Position numbers and translations under genes: made by a program. From contig JAGYJG010000001.1 of the NCBI GenBank assembly GCA_018402155.1, positions 1,469,001-1,533,000 on the forward strand: a DNA stretch of 64,000 bases. Direction: 5' to 3'. Shown piece after piece: positions 26,760 through 53,394 of this stretch (position 1 is the stretch's first letter; each line of letters begins with the position of its first letter). This stretch comes from Bacteroidia bacterium. Its GTDB lineage: Bacteria > Bacteroidota > Bacteroidia > NS11-12g > UBA9320. Below the pieces are notes generated by a model. That model was not told the DNA's origin and did not search any database. It worked only from the letters and a program-made list of their open reading frames with translations.

Positions 26760-28607
26760 TTAGTCTATGTACACTTTTTTGGCCAAACGTGTAGATCCGT
26801 CAGTTGAGGTAATAGTTAAAACATAGTTTCCAGCTGTTATCATTGAGACATCAATCAGAAACTCAATATTCCCTGGTGCTACTTTTTGCTCTTTTATACT
26901 TTTCACCTCACGTCCGAGCAAATCTGTGAGGGCTATATTCACTAATTCATTTTTATGGAATATGGTAGAAATTTTAATAAAATCTTGCGAGGGATTTGGA
27001 TACACAAAAAGCTCTTCTACCCCAAGGAGAACATTGTTTGCACGCACTTTAGCTATCCACACATTATTTCGGCCATCAGCATCACCATAGCTACCTACAA
27101 GCCATACAGCACCCAAGTCGTTATACTGTGGTTGTATGTCGGTATAGTCTCCCCACCGCTCCATACTGTCTGGCAAAAAAGAGTTAATTTCACTTTCTCC
27201 CTGTTTCACCATAAAAACTGGGCTGTAGTTGTGATATAAACCGTCTTTAAAATTGTAAAACATCGCGCTAGTACCTGGATAATCTGACTCACTAACGTGC
27301 GAAAAAGTAACTACCATAGAATTTTCATTGACAGTTTCTCCAGCAAAAGCGATAGACGGATAGGCATAATCCATATTCTCTGATGATATGATACGGCCTT
27401 CTACACGAGGCGAAGTGCCCACATCGAAAACAGTACCATGATAGATGCCAGAACTTAATAAAGTCGGATGCAAGGTAGACTGCACATACTGTATTTGCCC
27501 CAGATGAAGTGCAGCAGAAAGCACTCGAGTATCGTTAGTTTGTAGTCTGAAGCCTTGGGTAGGTTGAAAAGCCGAGGGAGGCACACCATAATTTTCATTA
27601 GAGGTAAGCACTGTAAGCTTATATGTGGCATCTGGTGATGTTGTCTTATTTGTAATTTCATGCAAAAAAACGGTGTCATTTGCTTCGGCATCTGGTCTTA
27701 CAGATAAGAAATACATATTATCCATATCCATGTCTACAGCTGGCTGCACAGGGCATATACTCCAAACAGGCGCATCGCCAAAGTTTATGTTTTGATACAA
27801 ATTTTGTACTAGAGTGTCTCCAGCATACCCCGAAGCTTTATTTACCTGCCATATAACACTTTGTACAAACCCCTCTTGCCAACTTTCGTTATCTCGCAGA
27901 ATATTTACGGTGATATATAGGTCTTCTTTGTTATGAGCTATAATAGGATAATCGCTCCATTTTGCTCCGCCGTTTGGTCGTCCATTTATGGCATAAAAAT
28001 TCCAATCTCCTGTGGGGTCGTTGGTTTGGCTAAAACCAGTAATGATGCGTGTATCACTACTATTGCTTCCCTCCAAAAATATTAGAATAAAGCGGTCAGA
28101 CAAAGGGTCGTAAAGTACTTTAGGATCATAAAACCTGTCTAATAAGCCTAGTTGTCCTTTTACCATACCAGACAACGACCGAAATTTGAGAGATTTTCCT
28201 GTAGAGTCAAGTATATTAACATTCGTATTTATGGCACTCATAATAAAGCCCCCATTACTCACAGCTATTGTATTGTCTAACGGTATACCAGTAGATCCGA
28301 GCGGTTTTCCATTAAAATCAGAAAGTACATTAGGAACTAAATCTGGGTTAACATCTACTTTTGTTTTTTGGATGTATTGTCTTTTGCGTTTAGCATCTAG
28401 TGCTGCTTTTACCTCCTTTACTTTAGAATAGGGTGCTGGTGCAGCAGCTCCTTCATTTAGGCTAATTATGTCGAGGTCGTCGTTTTCTAAGAAATTTACT
28501 GTCCATTGGTCTATAGTTGGTACATTTTCAATTTTTTGGAAAGTAGACTGAGCATAGGAAGTGCTTATAGCAGCAAAAAGAGTTAGAATTACCGTACATT
28601 TTTTCAT
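26760..28607 (-). CDS. T9SS type A sorting-domain secreted protein, beta-propeller-like
   Basis: 615 residues with a signal peptide (MKKCTVILTLFAAISTSYAQ). The body (about 100-520) is rich in repeated strands with Trp, Asp and Gly, with DPKVLYDPLSDRFILIFLEG and RWGDYTDIQPQ typical of propeller-like surface proteins. The end (about 535-615) is the type A C-terminal sorting signal: VYPNPSQDFIKI, then VNIALTDLLGREVKS and a final GNYVLTITSTDG. It is exported by T9SS. The ligand or enzyme activity is not evident. Confidence 0.82.
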   Translation of the reverse strand: MKKCTVILTLFAAISTSYAQSTFQKIENVPTIDQWTVNFLENDDLDIISLNEGAAAPAPYSKVKEVKAALDAKRKRQYIQKTKVDVNPDLVPNVLSDFNGKPLGSTGIPLDNTIAVSNGGFIMSAINTNVNILDSTGKSLKFRSLSGMVKGQLGLLDRFYDPKVLYDPLSDRFILIFLEGSNSSDTRIITGFSQTNDPTGDWNFYAINGRPNGGAKWSDYPIIAHNKEDLYITVNILRDNESWQEGFVQSVIWQVNKASGYAGDTLVQNLYQNINFGDAPVWSICPVQPAVDMDMDNMYFLSVRPDAEANDTVFLHEITNKTTSPDATYKLTVLTSNENYGVPPSAFQPTQGFRLQTNDTRVLSAALHLGQIQYVQSTLHPTLLSSGIYHGTVFDVGTSPRVEGRIISSENMDYAYPSIAFAGETVNENSMVVTFSHVSESDYPGTSAMFYNFKDGLYHNYSPVFMVKQGESEINSFLPDSMERWGDYTDIQPQYNDLGAVWLVGSYGDADGRNNVWIAKVRANNVLLGVEELFVYPNPSQDFIKISTIFHKNELVNIALTDLLGREVKSIKEQKVAPGNIEFLIDVSMITAGNYVLTITSTDGSTRLAKKVYID

Positions 28608-47189: not shown

Positions 47190-49586
47190 CTATTGAACAA
47201 CAAATTTCCGGAAATCATATGCTTTATTTTCGCTTATTACACCCAAAAAATAAGTGCCTGGAACTAGTTCTGAAACATCTATATCAAGTTCTACAGTTTT
47301 TTTCTCAAGCTTTTGTGTTTTCACTACCTTACCTTGTAAATCTGTAATTTCTAGAATGCAGTAATCTTGTTTGGTCGCAAAAACAACGTGTAGCGCGTCG
47401 TTCACAGGATTTGGAAATAGATTAAATACCACTGGTTTTTTTGTTGTTTTTTTTGTGTTCGCTAGATTTTGATCATACATAGCCAAGCAGTATTGCCCTT
47501 TTTTTAACTTGCTAATGCTAATTGTACCTCTTTTGTCAAACAAGCTTCCTGTGTTTTTGATATAGTTTGTAGCGAGTTCCCACGGACTACCCGCATTTGG
47601 TCTGTAGAGCAACACTAGGCTATCTTCCGTTATTCGTATCAGCTCGTTGTCTAGGTAGCCAAATTGTAAGGAGTTTGCTCGCAATCCACTGTAGATAAGA
47701 GTAGCAGAAATACTGACTCCATCTTGCCAAATACCATCTATGCTCCAATATCGTTGACGACTTAGAACTGTTTTTTCTGGTTTTCCATAGGTTCCATCTG
47801 CAGGTGCCCAATGGTGTTCTACTCGAAGTAAAATAGAATCGTTAGAATTATTATCAATTTCTACATCTGATAGTAAGCCTTGAGGCATATTTATACTATG
47901 TTTTCCGGGTTGCAAGATGGCCCAGTCAGTAGTCACTGCATCACTTATTTTATCATCAAAATCAAAAGCCCAATACACGGGCTCGAATGGACAGTTTACA
48001 TCAAAAGTTTGCTCTTTATTGAAAATAATAACTTGAGCATCGTGTCTTTCCCAGTTTTTGCCAAAAGCAGTAACGGTAGCTACAGTACCAGCATAGTTTA
48101 TATCATTGAAACGAGGAGTTTGCTTGATGTGTACTTTATAAAAGCCATCTTGACGTATCACCCAATTGATGTCAAAATGAGCAAATCCGGCTTCCTTTAT
48201 CCAATAATCAAAAAAGCCCCTTAGATTAAGGGGTGTATATTGACCAAAGTGATTGGCCATATCTTGGGTAGATACTGCTTTAAACTTATAGGCTTTTTGA
48301 AAGCCAGCACACGCTCGAAAAAAATCTTGATCACCCATCATACCCCTTAGAGTGTGTACCATATCTGCACCTTTATTGTAAACATGACGCCCGTATGTAT
48401 TGGCATGACCTATACCGCTTACGGGCAAAACAGCTCCGTCTTGTACGTGAGCAAACTGCAAGACTTGGCGATGATTTTCTTCTATTTCTTCGTCATACCG
48501 CTTTTTACCGTAAACAGCCTCTAGAAATATACGCTCAGAGTACGAAGCCCAGCCCTCGTTGAGCCACATATCCTCTTGAGTGCGGCAGGTTGTAGTATTT
48601 CCCCACCAGTGGTGAGCTAGCTCATGAGCAAAAAGTGTTTCATAATCTTTATCTCCGTTGGCTATAGCATAACGGGGATAGGCTATATTGGTAGCATGCT
48701 CCATAGCTCCCGAATTGAAAGGTACAATATTAAACCCGATACGATCAAAGTTATGATCTCCGTATACCTCGATAAACCTACGGATACAGTTAGGCAAGTT
48801 TTCAAAACTACTTCGTAAATTAGCTGTATCTGCAGCCAGCGAGGTAAGTAAAACCGGAATTTCATTCGTATTCATTGTTACTTCTTCATAGCTTGCAATA
48901 GCTACAGAAGCCAAGTAAGTGGGTATAGGCTCGTCCATCAGCCATTTATAGGTCGTGGTTTGGTTGCCGTTATCTATTTCATCCGTTAAGTATCCATTGG
49001 CGTACGCTTTTTTGCCACTATCTACGGTGATATTGGTGTAGTAAATTGCTCTATCTACAAAATTATCAAAACATGGAAACCACGCGCGGCCAAAATTATG
49101 GGGGTCTGCGGCAAAACCAACTCCCAGGTTAAAAGCATATTCTCCATTAAAATAAAATCCACCCCATTGCTCATCTTGCTTCGGATTTCCTCGGTATTTT
49201 ATCGATACCTGAAAGGTATCAGCAACAGCGATACTAGGTAAATTTATGCTGAGTGCAGGGCTGGTGTATAAAAATGATTGTGAAATCCCATTGACAGAGA
49301 CCTCATCTACTTGCAAGTCTAGTAAATCTAAGACTACTGTAGAAGCGGGTTTGAGTAAAATAATCTCTAGCGTTGTGGTGGCTACTATCTCTTTTTTTTT
49401 TTGGTAATCCAAAAAAGCTGCATTTATCTCATATATCAACACATCAAAAGTGTCTGCTCTAGGATCTAACGTATTGTTCATTGCTGCTTGGTGCTCTATA
49501 CGCAAGTGATTGCACATTTTTTGTGCAAAACTCCAATGCGAAATAAATCCCATTGCGGCTAGAAAAAGAATCAATCGTGTTCTCAT
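47190..49586 (-). CDS. M1-family metallo-aminopeptidase with T9SS type A sorting domain
   Basis: 798 residues with a signal peptide (ending FISHWSFAQ). The substrate motif is SGAMEHATNIAYP (a GAMEN variant) and the zinc site LFAHELAHHWWGNTTTC with the third Glu in EDMWLNEGWASYSERIFLEAVYGKKRYDEE. The sorting domain (about 715-798) has VFNLFPNPVNDALHVVF, LEITDLQGKVVK and ELVPGTYFLGV. It should trim N-terminal residues from peptides outside the cell. It shares a 38-bp divergent start region with the gingipain-like gene. Confidence 0.92.
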   Translation of the reverse strand: MRTRLILFLAAMGFISHWSFAQKMCNHLRIEHQAAMNNTLDPRADTFDVLIYEINAAFLDYQKKKEIVATTTLEIILLKPASTVVLDLLDLQVDEVSVNGISQSFLYTSPALSINLPSIAVADTFQVSIKYRGNPKQDEQWGGFYFNGEYAFNLGVGFAADPHNFGRAWFPCFDNFVDRAIYYTNITVDSGKKAYANGYLTDEIDNGNQTTTYKWLMDEPIPTYLASVAIASYEEVTMNTNEIPVLLTSLAADTANLRSSFENLPNCIRRFIEVYGDHNFDRIGFNIVPFNSGAMEHATNIAYPRYAIANGDKDYETLFAHELAHHWWGNTTTCRTQEDMWLNEGWASYSERIFLEAVYGKKRYDEEIEENHRQVLQFAHVQDGAVLPVSGIGHANTYGRHVYNKGADMVHTLRGMMGDQDFFRACAGFQKAYKFKAVSTQDMANHFGQYTPLNLRGFFDYWIKEAGFAHFDINWVIRQDGFYKVHIKQTPRFNDINYAGTVATVTAFGKNWERHDAQVIIFNKEQTFDVNCPFEPVYWAFDFDDKISDAVTTDWAILQPGKHSINMPQGLLSDVEIDNNSNDSILLRVEHHWAPADGTYGKPEKTVLSRQRYWSIDGIWQDGVSISATLIYSGLRANSLQFGYLDNELIRITEDSLVLLYRPNAGSPWELATNYIKNTGSLFDKRGTISISKLKKGQYCLAMYDQNLANTKKTTKKPVVFNLFPNPVNDALHVVFATKQDYCILEITDLQGKVVKTQKLEKKTVELDIDVSELVPGTYFLGVISENKAYDFRKFVVQ

Positions 49587-49624: not shown

Positions 49625-51631
49625 ATGATGAAATTAAGCGCAAAACTTATTACCCTACTTTTACTTGTATGTATACACTCATTACTATTTGCCCAAACCT
49701 CGTCAGAATCACGCTCTGCCCATGGATATGTCACAACCAACCAAGTCACAAAAACAATAACACTACACTGGAACACCACTGCAAACACAACGGCATTTAG
49801 AATTTATAGAAGAGCACTGAACAGTACAAATTGGGGTACAGCGTTAGCTACGCTAGACGCCACCACAATTAGTTATACTGACACAGACATAACTACAGGC
49901 AATATTTATGAGTACGCCATAGAACGTGAAACCAATACTAATGACCCTTTTCGTTCGGGAAACATACTAGGATACAGCTATATAAGTGCAGGAATAGAAA
50001 CGCCTGCCAAACACCAACGCGGTACACTTTGGATATTTACTACTACTTTAATAAACGATAGTCTGCCTAACGAGATCAGCACTCTAGTGGCTGATTTAGT
50101 TGCCGACGGATGGGATGTACACCAAGAAGTTATAGACACTAATACGACCGTAGTGGATATGAAATTGCTCATAAAAAATAAGCAAAGCACTATTGGATGT
50201 GACGCTATTTATCTACTCGGACATCTACCAGTACCCTACTCTGGTGTATATTGCGAAGACGATGAATATCTCTTTCCGCCAGATGGACATAACGAGACCG
50301 ACCCAAACTCTCACTGTGGGGCGTGGCCTGCAGATGTATTTTACGGAGATATGGAGGGCACCTGGACAGACAACGACTCTACTTCGTTAGCCAAAAGGGA
50401 CGAGAATAATAACGAAATAGGCGACAACAAGTGGGACCAACATAGAATACCGGGCGAAGTGTCAATAGCAGTAGGACGTGTAGATATGAGCGATTTACCT
50501 CTATTTGGGGTAGGTGAAGTGGCACTTACGAAACGCTACCTGGACAAAGTACATACCTACAAGATAGGTAATACCGAATTAGAAAATAAAGGAGTTGTAG
50601 AAAATAATTTTGCAAGCTTTGCCGAAGGGTTCAGCTCTGCTGCTTTGCGGGATTTTCATGCAATTTGTGGACAAAATGCTGTGGTACAAGAAGATGTATT
50701 CGCTGCAGCACGCCAAAAAGACTATCTCTTTTCGTATGTATGTGGCGCAGGTTCTTATAGTTCTTGCGCTGGTTTTGGGACAAGTGATAGTTTTACTAAT
50801 AACAATATGGCCGCTTTCAATCATCTATTTGGAAGTTTTTTTGGTGATTGGGATATACAAAACAATCTACTAAGAGCTTCACTGGCCACTGAAAGACTTG
50901 GGTTTAATGTAATTTGGAGTGGAAGACCTAAGTGGGTTACCCACACTTTAGCCATTGGTGAAAGCTATACAGATGTGGTGAAAAGATCGCAAAATAATGT
51001 ACTTGATTATGACGCTGGATTTTATCAAAACGGAGCACACATTGCCTTATTAGGCGACCCAAGCTTACGTTTGTATCCACTGAAGCCAGCCAAAAATATC
51101 ATCGCTGAAACCAATGAAATTAGAGATAAAACCATACTTCGTTGGGAGGCTACCGATGAAACAGATATACTAGGCTACTATGTTTATCGTAGCAAAAAAA
51201 AAACTGGCAAATTTAAAATGCTAAATACTTCACCTACAACCGAAACTACCTACACCGACAATGCTCCCTATGACGGTACTAATCACTATATGGTTCGTGT
51301 TGCTAAAAAACAAGAAACAGGTAGCGGTAGCTATATCAATCTAAGTTTGGGTATACCTGCAGAAATAAATGACATGAAAGGCGAAATAGCACATAAAGAA
51401 GAAGTGAAGCTGTCAAATACAAGACTCTATCCTACGGTAGCTACTACACGCATCAGCATAGACCAGGGATTTCCACAGAATAATAGCTATCTGATTATGA
51501 ACATAATGGGACAAGTAGTATCAAAAGGTACGCTCAACGAAATAATTACTAACGTAGCTATTACTCAACTTTCTCCGGGCACATATTTTGTAAAAACAAA
51601 CGACGCTACTTTACGATTTATTAAGCGATAA
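49625..51631 (+). CDS. T9SS-exported gingipain-like (C25-fold) protein lacking evident catalytic residues
   Basis: 668 residues with a signal peptide (ending SLLFAQ, residue 24). One FnIII-like domain precedes (40-110) and another follows (490-575) the core. The core (about 130-490) has the strand order of gingipain/C25 caspase-like proteins: DAIYLLGHLPVPY, AWPADVFYGD, VAVGRV-like AVGRVDMSD, LFSYVCGAGSYSSC, NHLFGSFFGDWD, ATERLGFNVIWSG and ALLGDPSLRL. Where gingipains have the catalytic His (GHG) and Cys, this protein has Cys-Gly-Ala-Gly and Phe-Gly-Ser. Ends with a type A sorting signal (LYPTVATTRISID; LSPGTYFVKT). Fold assignment is inference; no enzyme activity is claimed. Confidence 0.7.
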   Translation: MMKLSAKLITLLLLVCIHSLLFAQTSSESRSAHGYVTTNQVTKTITLHWNTTANTTAFRIYRRALNSTNWGTALATLDATTISYTDTDITTGNIYEYAIERETNTNDPFRSGNILGYSYISAGIETPAKHQRGTLWIFTTTLINDSLPNEISTLVADLVADGWDVHQEVIDTNTTVVDMKLLIKNKQSTIGCDAIYLLGHLPVPYSGVYCEDDEYLFPPDGHNETDPNSHCGAWPADVFYGDMEGTWTDNDSTSLAKRDENNNEIGDNKWDQHRIPGEVSIAVGRVDMSDLPLFGVGEVALTKRYLDKVHTYKIGNTELENKGVVENNFASFAEGFSSAALRDFHAICGQNAVVQEDVFAAARQKDYLFSYVCGAGSYSSCAGFGTSDSFTNNNMAAFNHLFGSFFGDWDIQNNLLRASLATERLGFNVIWSGRPKWVTHTLAIGESYTDVVKRSQNNVLDYDAGFYQNGAHIALLGDPSLRLYPLKPAKNIIAETNEIRDKTILRWEATDETDILGYYVYRSKKKTGKFKMLNTSPTTETTYTDNAPYDGTNHYMVRVAKKQETGSGSYINLSLGIPAEINDMKGEIAHKEEVKLSNTRLYPTVATTRISIDQGFPQNNSYLIMNIMGQVVSKGTLNEIITNVAITQLSPGTYFVKTNDATLRFIKR

Positions 51632-51645
51632 AATCTCACTTTCAA

Positions 51646-53394
51646 CTATTGATTTGAACCAAAAAAATCTTTATTTTGATTTTGATAAAAAGCTTTTTCA
51701 TACGATTTATCTTGAGGTGGGCTAAGATAGGATTTCATGCCAATGTCATAAGTGTTAAGCGTAGAATCTGAGACAAAGACTATACCATTATGATATGAAT
51801 AAAAGGCCCTCCCCTGCGGAGACAGTAGTGTGGCTCCTAGCTTTTTACTATTCCCAAAAAGCTGATCAAGAGTAGGAAGAACGTCCAATTGGCTCACCGT
51901 ATTGGGTACTGATATATCTGCGAGTAAAACCCCGCCTGTGAGTAGTAGTGGTATTCTAAAATTGGCCGTATCAAATATCGGGGCATTATCTGGCCGTATG
52001 GTTCCGTGGTCTGCAGTGATAATGAGTAAGGTATTTTTCCATTTTCCAGAACTTTTAAGTCCATCTACAAACACACCCAAACAACTGTCTGTATATGCTA
52101 CACTATTGAGGTATTTATTTTTGTACTTTTCAAAATGTGGCACGTCAAAAGGCTCATGGCTGCTCAACGAAAATATCATACGAAATTGTGGTTTTGATTG
52201 TTCCACAAATTCTTGAAGCTCTTGTTTAAAAACTTCTTCGTCATGCACTCCCCATACATTGGTATTTTCACTCTTATAGTCGTCTTGAGATTTCACTTTA
52301 GTTGCATCTTTAAAGAGCACTTTAATATTGGCGAACTCTAAATTTCCTCCATAGCCAAAACTAGTGTGGTAGGTATCCGGGAAAATACTAAATATACTCG
52401 GCTTACGAGCAAGATGCTGCGGAAAATTGGTAAGCGTTTGTCGCGCTCCACTAGGCACTCCGTATGTGAGGCCAAGCAACCCTTTGTCGGATCTAAAACT
52501 GCTTGCAAATGCACGACGAAAATTTATACCCTTCTTCATAAGTCGATTCAAATTTGGAGTAACGTCATAAGTTACTCCGCTCAAACCACCTACTACCTTA
52601 GCGCTAAAACTTTCTAGTACTAGGAGTATAACATTAGTACTATCATTTACAACTACGATACTATCCAAAGATGTAGACGACTTTACTTTTAATTCCAGCT
52701 CCTTTAGAGTACTTTCATCTTCAAAAAAAACCAAGGGTGCGTGCTTATCTCGCTCAAATTCCGTGGCCAAAAAATTCCAAACTGCATTTACTGCTGCATT
52801 ATTATATAAATTGTTTTCGCTAAAATAAGCACTGCTCAAATTGATAGGAACCTTACTAAAACCTCCTCTGAGTAGTACCACAGAAACACCAATTAGTAAA
52901 AGGTTTCCAAAAACACTTTTGGATTTTGTAGTAAGTAAAACTCTAATACCGTATTTAGCAAACCAACTCAATGCAATTACCAAAAATGCCACCACAATGA
53001 TGTAAGTAGAAACCTCAATAGAGGACAATCCGGCATTTTCTTTGCCCAAAAACTGTGTAAAACCCAAATTTGTTTTTTGTCCCCAATAGCTGAAAAAATA
53101 AGGGTCAACAGCCACTATGAGCAACACAAAAATAAAAACCAGCCACCAGTATACCCGCAGAAAACTAACTAGCTTTTTGGAAAATATTGACTGTACTGCG
53201 AGAATAGCCAATGAAATGAGTGAAAGATATCCTACAACCGACAAATCCAGTCTTACACCATTTTTCCAGATCGTATAAAAAGTTGAAAGACTAAAATCGT
53301 TACTGTTAACAATAAAAAAAAACAATTTAGCTACCGCAAAAAATAGTAACCATAGGACAGTCGTTCGGATAAAATGAAGAATAGCTTGTATCAA
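51646..53394 (-). CDS. LTA synthase-like sulfatase/phosphotransferase-fold membrane protein
   Basis: 582 residues. Five transmembrane helices (about 7-30, 50-70, 80-100, 125-145, 160-178), then an alkaline-phosphatase-type extracytoplasmic domain (about 245-582). Metal-site and active-site patterns: ILLVLESFSA (Glu 261), a Ser at position 302 in SFRSDKGLLG at the nucleophile site, LNSVAYTDSCLGVF, LLIITADHGTIRPD and the late Asp-His. It may move phosphoglycerol or phosphoethanolamine onto an envelope glycan; the substrate is not known. It overlaps the FAD oxidoreductase gene by 4 nt. Confidence 0.8.
   Translation of the reverse strand: MIQAILHFIRTTVLWLLFFAVAKLFFFIVNSNDFSLSTFYTIWKNGVRLDLSVVGYLSLISLAILAVQSIFSKKLVSFLRVYWWLVFIFVLLIVAVDPYFFSYWGQKTNLGFTQFLGKENAGLSSIEVSTYIIVVAFLVIALSWFAKYGIRVLLTTKSKSVFGNLLLIGVSVVLLRGGFSKVPINLSSAYFSENNLYNNAAVNAVWNFLATEFERDKHAPLVFFEDESTLKELELKVKSSTSLDSIVVVNDSTNVILLVLESFSAKVVGGLSGVTYDVTPNLNRLMKKGINFRRAFASSFRSDKGLLGLTYGVPSGARQTLTNFPQHLARKPSIFSIFPDTYHTSFGYGGNLEFANIKVLFKDATKVKSQDDYKSENTNVWGVHDEEVFKQELQEFVEQSKPQFRMIFSLSSHEPFDVPHFEKYKNKYLNSVAYTDSCLGVFVDGLKSSGKWKNTLLIITADHGTIRPDNAPIFDTANFRIPLLLTGGVLLADISVPNTVSQLDVLPTLDQLFGNSKKLGATLLSPQGRAFYSYHNGIVFVSDSTLNTYDIGMKSYLSPPQDKSYEKAFYQNQNKDFFGSNQ

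Follow-up and report, generated by a model that had tools for sequence, protein, structure and literature searches.

A secreted gingipain-like protein family without the His/Cys dyad and its probable reuse for another job

The window, a stretch of 64,000 nucleotides from a Bacteroidia bacterium, encodes a 668-residue protein whose core is, by profile–profile comparison, a homologue of the C25 peptidases (gingipains and PorU). Across the family to which this protein belongs, the old catalytic Cys appears to have been replaced by an invariant Ser, and conservation has moved from the old catalytic half of the domain to an N-terminal subdomain rich in Asp and His. The gingipain scaffold now probably serves a different purpose. 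Our best explanation, to which we assign a probability of about one half, is that the protein would be a secreted pseudo-peptidase of the C25 fold with a Ca-stabilised insertion, reused for ligand binding. The gene, its parts and its divergent neighbour are as follows.

49625..51631, plus strand: open reading frame encoding 668 residues
49625..49693, plus strand: putative signal peptide, residues 1-23, ending before Q24 (signal-peptide-like N-terminus read from the sequence)
49694..49978, plus strand: N-terminal Fn3-like domain, residues 24-118 (phmmer against the Fn3-like structure 3mpc, E 0.021)
50006..51100, plus strand: C25-like (gingipain/PorU) core, residues 128-492 (hhalign against 19 C25 domains)
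50219..50485, plus strand: conserved insertion region, residues 199-287, with PVPYSG, PPDGH, H.GAW.AD, GDNKWD and VGRVD (columns of the 106-row alignment)
50741..50767, plus strand: former His loop CGAGSYSSC, residues 373-381 (hhalign pairing with the C25 GHG loop)
50828..50854, plus strand: former Cys site FGSFFGDWD, residues 402-410, with S404 at 50834-50836 (hhalign pairing with the C25 Cys)
51047..51073, plus strand: closing LLGDPSLRL, residues 475-483, equivalent to the C25 GDP motif (hhalign pairing and 106 rows)
51101..51394, plus strand: second Fn3-like domain, residues 493-590 (family profile positions 482-552 against 3mpc, E 7.4e-8)
51428..51625, plus strand: type A T9SS sorting tail, residues 602-667 (NCBIfam TIGR04183, 24.7 bits, cut-off 23)
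47190..49586, minus strand: M1 peptidase with a T9SS tail, divergent, 38 bp between the starts (PF01433, E 1.6e-27; PF18962, 57.7 bits)

Export, C25 relationship and distribution

The first-pass annotation had proposed that the protein is T9SS cargo, and this is borne out by a TIGR04183 match above the cut-off together with the signal-peptide-like N-terminus. The Pfam tail model PF18962 scores 23.7 in a scan of the protein (cut-off 27) and 28.9 bits in a search of the host genome (G000, 2.49 Mb), where the gene is one of 84 matches to the T9SS tail model at E values up to 0.001. In a 67-row alignment, from which the protein itself (L001) and L031, a duplicate of L012, were left out, all 63 rows with a residue opposite Q24 have Gln there, the remaining 4 being gapped. 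Fn3 structures are also matched by the family profile over residues 24-118. The host genome holds a single copy of the gene and also carries a full-length PorU-type C25 gene (G000:C1:355407-356528). Another T9SS-tailed protein, without any other Pfam domain, is encoded elsewhere in the window (26760-28607, minus strand; PF18962, 44.6 bits).

A Pfam scan of the whole 668-residue protein returns the tail and no C25 domain, and the Pfam C25 model reaches the isolated domain at E 0.15. For profile comparison, family members were gathered from related genomes, a wider phylum sample and plasmids, and a C25 reference was assembled from 19 domains of the same and related genomes; the reference profile finds PorU (6za2, E 1.8e-60) and RgpB (1cvr, E 1e-16) among solved structures. 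Aligned by hhalign, the family and the reference match at E 4.8e-8 and 6.8e-8 (1.1e-8 or 1.7e-9 in local runs). The score is 71.7; of the controls, the highest of 200 column shuffles reaches 23.7, a reversed profile 17.8 and five unrelated neighbour families no more than 22.2. The C25-like core, suggested earlier from strand order and the closing LLGDPSLRL, is thereby supported at the level of sequence profiles. Three family genes (G039:C3, G038:C2 and G037:C2) contain a PF01364 match above the cut-off, and the same model hits 18 of 31 family domains scanned in isolation with E values of 1 or below. At the end of the core, G477, D478 and P479 are kept in 105/105 rows with letters and pair with the C25 GDP motif at a posterior of 0.997 (full reference). 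A search of the domain profile against solved structures gave no match, and AlphaFold2 returned a mean pLDDT of 44.9 for the mature protein without its tail and 35.1 for the domain alone (5 sequences each).

The domain is present in 50 of 58 relative genomes with a best E of 1.3e-82 or lower; a tally of 53/58 includes tail-only matches. The domain model matches 34 of the 395 genomes in the phylum sample at E values of 0.001 or less, a count that includes G295, where the match is partial and falls on a different, dyad-bearing protein. One scan of genome contigs for homologues outside the phylum yielded four loci, all in Bacteroidetes or Bacteroidia records, and 118 pattern stretches from IMG/VR viral contigs contained no relative. 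Plasmids of the proteobacteria Methylomagnum and Roseobacter carry relatives annotated only as hypothetical; similar hypothetical proteins presumably occur in Planctomycetes as well. Neither Pfam nor NCBIfam has a model specific to the family, and the literature searched yielded no description of it and none of the strings PVPYSG, GAWPAD, FGSYFGD, FGSFFGD and GDGKFDQ. In a tree, the 105 family sequences included group together (support 0.73), with a trio from Methylomagnum and Roseobacter placed beside the other 102 at a support of 0.52, too low to tell whether Cys or His was lost first. On the Roseobacter plasmids (L099 and L100), the family relatives adjoin a sulfate adenylyltransferase gene; the same plasmids carry VPLPA-CTERM proteins, and glycosyltransferase or polysaccharide-export genes.

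The former catalytic positions

Clan CD enzymes depend on a His/Cys dyad, which in RgpB lies at the ends of two neighbouring strands, according to a review (PMC4357240). Both residues are present in 19/19 of the C25 reference domains. The equivalent family positions were read from an alignment of 106 rows that excludes the exact duplicate L202, still counts the L066 gene twice, the second time as a truncated reading (second ORF of L023), includes genes cut by contig ends (e.g., L012, L014, L025 and L067), and holds part of the phylum-search matches.

S404 pairs with the C25 Cys at a posterior of 0.86 with the 106-row profile and 0.83 with a 31-row profile, and position 404 is Ser in every one of the 106 rows; columns 400-406 hold Cys in a single row, at 406. 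This register is best with the full reference and weaker with sub-profiles. Against 10 PorU sequences alone, S404 still pairs with Cys at 0.19-0.20; against 9 PorU-like sequences the two runs differ, one pairing it with Cys (0.27) and the other with Ser (0.48); and against a group of C25-like proteins with HEAT repeats, considered below, the two runs give 0.70 for Cys and 0.49 for Ser, respectively. In a three-group MAFFT alignment the C25 Cys is shifted a few columns from S404. Our preference for the hhalign register is a matter of judgement and rests on the agreement of the neighbouring columns (SxxGDW versus CxxGDF in RgpB); from the nucleophile position on, RgpB reads CVNGDF and the window protein SFFGDW. 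The expected Cys site had first been described as lacking an evident catalytic residue. The Cys is indeed absent, but the position is not blank, being held by the invariant Ser.

The former His loop pairs with the C25 GHG loop in a loose register (posterior 0.38-0.50) that places C373 opposite the C25 His. No row among the 106 has His in columns 372-378. Within the former loop as a whole, His occurs only in two Roseobacter plasmid proteins, which read FGHHKG in a shorter loop and keep the same invariant Ser. In RgpB, a pair of Gly residues flanking the dyad His bonds the P1 residue, as stated in the review (PMC4357240), where this His is printed as His221; by count of the 1cvr chain it is residue 211. 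Since the equivalents of this Gly pair are kept (G374 in 98 of 106 rows, G376 in 101), a pocket may survive.

With the His/Cys dyad absent, the protein should therefore not be a C25 cysteine peptidase, and the loss of the catalytic pair, first noticed in the window protein, extends to the whole family. Both motifs had also been thought well conserved. An alignment of homologues upholds this for the Cys site, where G407 is kept in 99/106 rows, D408 in 98, W409 in 85 and D410 in 94, but not for the cysteines of CGAGSYSSC, C373 being present in 72/106 rows and C381 in 61. A C373-C381 disulphide was considered and rejected, the two columns showing no co-occurrence at p below 1e-4. It is very improbable that the protein has remained a cysteine peptidase by drawing its Cys and His from other parts of the fold: the weak register of the His loop, with C373 itself opposite the C25 His, gives this idea some room, but no Cys column is invariant, C373 being the best, and Cys is nearly missing from the columns around S404. 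Because the dyad is absent while the core is strongly conserved, plain decay is unlikely as well, and the scaffold would be under selection for something else.

Conservation in the N-terminal subdomain and candidate functions

When only columns with a residue in 90% or more of the 106 rows are considered, identity reaches 95% or more in 28 of them, 19 lying in residues 128-310 and 9 in residues 311-492. This N-terminal concentration, the strongest in the protein, had not been mentioned in the first-pass annotation. The N-terminal set comprises, among others, D220, H222, H230, D237, D249, N263, D267, K269, D271, R285, D287 and Y305; the first eleven of these, with G199, lie in the insertion region and are each found in at least 95% of rows with a letter. 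Among the nine C-terminal columns, S404 and the Asp of GDP provide the sole hydroxyl or charged side chains; no His column reaches 95% in residues 311-492, H440 being His in 92 of the 105 rows with letters. D220 is kept in 105/105 and H222 in 104/105 rows with letters, and all 31 rows of a domain alignment extended to the proteobacterial members have D220, H222, D237, R285, D287, Y305 and S404.

D237 and R285 match conserved C25 residues (posterior 0.83-0.96 with the full reference, the register of the aspartate being perhaps off by one), and the family-specific part therefore lies in and around the insertion. The third Ca site of RgpB, given as Asp103 and Glu107 in the review (PMC4357240), falls between the equivalents of D237 and R285 when residues are counted along the RgpB alignment. 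Because this is where the family has its insertion, we infer that the insertion carries a putative Ca site. C210 and C231 bracket D220-H222 (the PPDGH loop). Every row that has one of these cysteines also has the other (21 of 106 rows), a pattern suggestive of a lineage-specific disulphide that spans the insertion region. The GDGKFD loop presumably resembles a Ca loop.

On the ligand-binding explanation, the protein would be exported via the T9SS and then displayed or released. Its insertion would bind Ca and shape a ligand surface, and this surface or the old cleft would hold a conserved ligand, a peptide or glycoconjugate. The protein would then act as a binding partner, possibly together with the co-located M1 peptidase. 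Of the steps in this explanation, the binding function is the least certain. An invariant Ser at the nucleophile position and the invariant D220, H222, D237 and Y305 are no less compatible with an enzyme than with a binder.

A possible, if tentative, alternative is that the gingipain fold has acquired a new active site, made either by S404 and some base in place of the lost His or by the N-terminal Asp/His cluster. If it were true, the two Roseobacter proteins that combine the Ser with a His in the old loop would be close to an intermediate, and to our knowledge the family would provide the first non-cysteine enzyme of the C25 fold. One form of this idea, which we regard as doubtful, is a Ser-dependent hydrolase or transferase in which S404 is the nucleophile and H222 or D408/D410 replaces the lost His. 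The fixation of S404, D220 and H222 throughout the family, the invariance of these residues along with D237, R285, D287 and Y305 when proteobacterial members are included, and the pairing of Ser with an old-loop His in the Roseobacter proteins all speak for such an enzyme. The shortage of a conserved His in residues 311-492 speaks against it, as does the topology of RgpB, whose four N-terminal strands run antiparallel to the catalytic ones according to the review (PMC4357240); this would place the insertion after them, at the edge of the sheet opposite to S404. Conservation makes H222 attractive as a relocated base, but these strand directions make that role less likely, and it is kept as a rival only.

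Another form, quite unlikely in our assessment, is a divalent-metal site for catalysis or binding in the N-terminal subdomain, built from D220, H222, H230, D237 and neighbours, with S404 as a remnant. Such a site would coincide with the densest conservation of the protein and could draw on two His and many Asp residues, but H230 and W234 are missing from the Methylomagnum and Roseobacter relatives, D237 and R285 are common to ordinary C25 enzymes and so may be structural, and the GDGKFD loop appears closer to a Ca loop.

Genomic neighbourhood and comparison with known systems

The neighbouring M1 peptidase had been pointed out earlier as T9SS cargo; its sorting tail and divergent orientation are as listed above, and the linkage recurs in relatives. 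HELAH and downstream NEGW motifs can be read from its sequence. An M1 gene is present in at least 13 of 62 loci, mostly of the same genus, a lower bound since many loci have only 1.5 kb of flank or are cut by a contig end. Among 21 wider neighbourhoods five contain it, and in four of these five a further protein family (cluster 3), with a T9SS tail in both members scanned, lies between the two genes. On the other side, a sulfatase-family membrane protein gene (51646-53394, minus strand) ends 14 bp from the end of the gene studied here; such a gene is found downstream in 14 of the 62 loci. At three loci of order relatives (L230, L233 and L234) the gene lies, in conserved order, between an OmpA-domain protein gene and an H+-pyrophosphatase gene.

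Gingipains and PorU are part of the Bacteroidota machinery for cutting and anchoring T9SS cargo. A widespread C25 sister group in which the dyad was dropped, a Ser fixed and conservation moved would be a natural test of a protease scaffold changing its job. With the C25 enzymes (PF01364; RgpB/Kgp, PorU) the family shares profile homology over about 300 columns, the GDP motif, a conserved Asp and Arg of the N-terminal subdomain, T9SS export and an Ig-like domain after the core, which in RgpB is an IgSF domain according to the review (PMC4357240). It differs from them in the absent His and Cys, the fixed Ser, the expanded Asp/His-rich insertion and the Fn3-like domain in front.

The C25-like/HEAT-repeat proteins of Bacteroides and related genomes share with the family a GDIP/GHVP strand and the aspartate region, and match it by profile in the N-terminal half (E 2.7e-6). 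In contrast to the family, they have an invariant HHHG and Cys in 7/7 aligned sequences, and HEAT repeats instead of a T9SS tail. This group includes L198:865-3117 (G295) and L223:3031-5223 (a Bacteroides finegoldii plasmid) and occurs as tandem copies in some genomes; Pfam detects only the HEAT repeats in its members. A further parallel is cFLIP, a pseudo-enzyme with which the family would have in common a caspase-like fold, here judged from the sequence profile, without a working site. Whereas cFLIP is a eukaryotic signalling protein, the members of the present family are bacterial and secreted; their Ser is invariant, and their N-terminal site is newly conserved.
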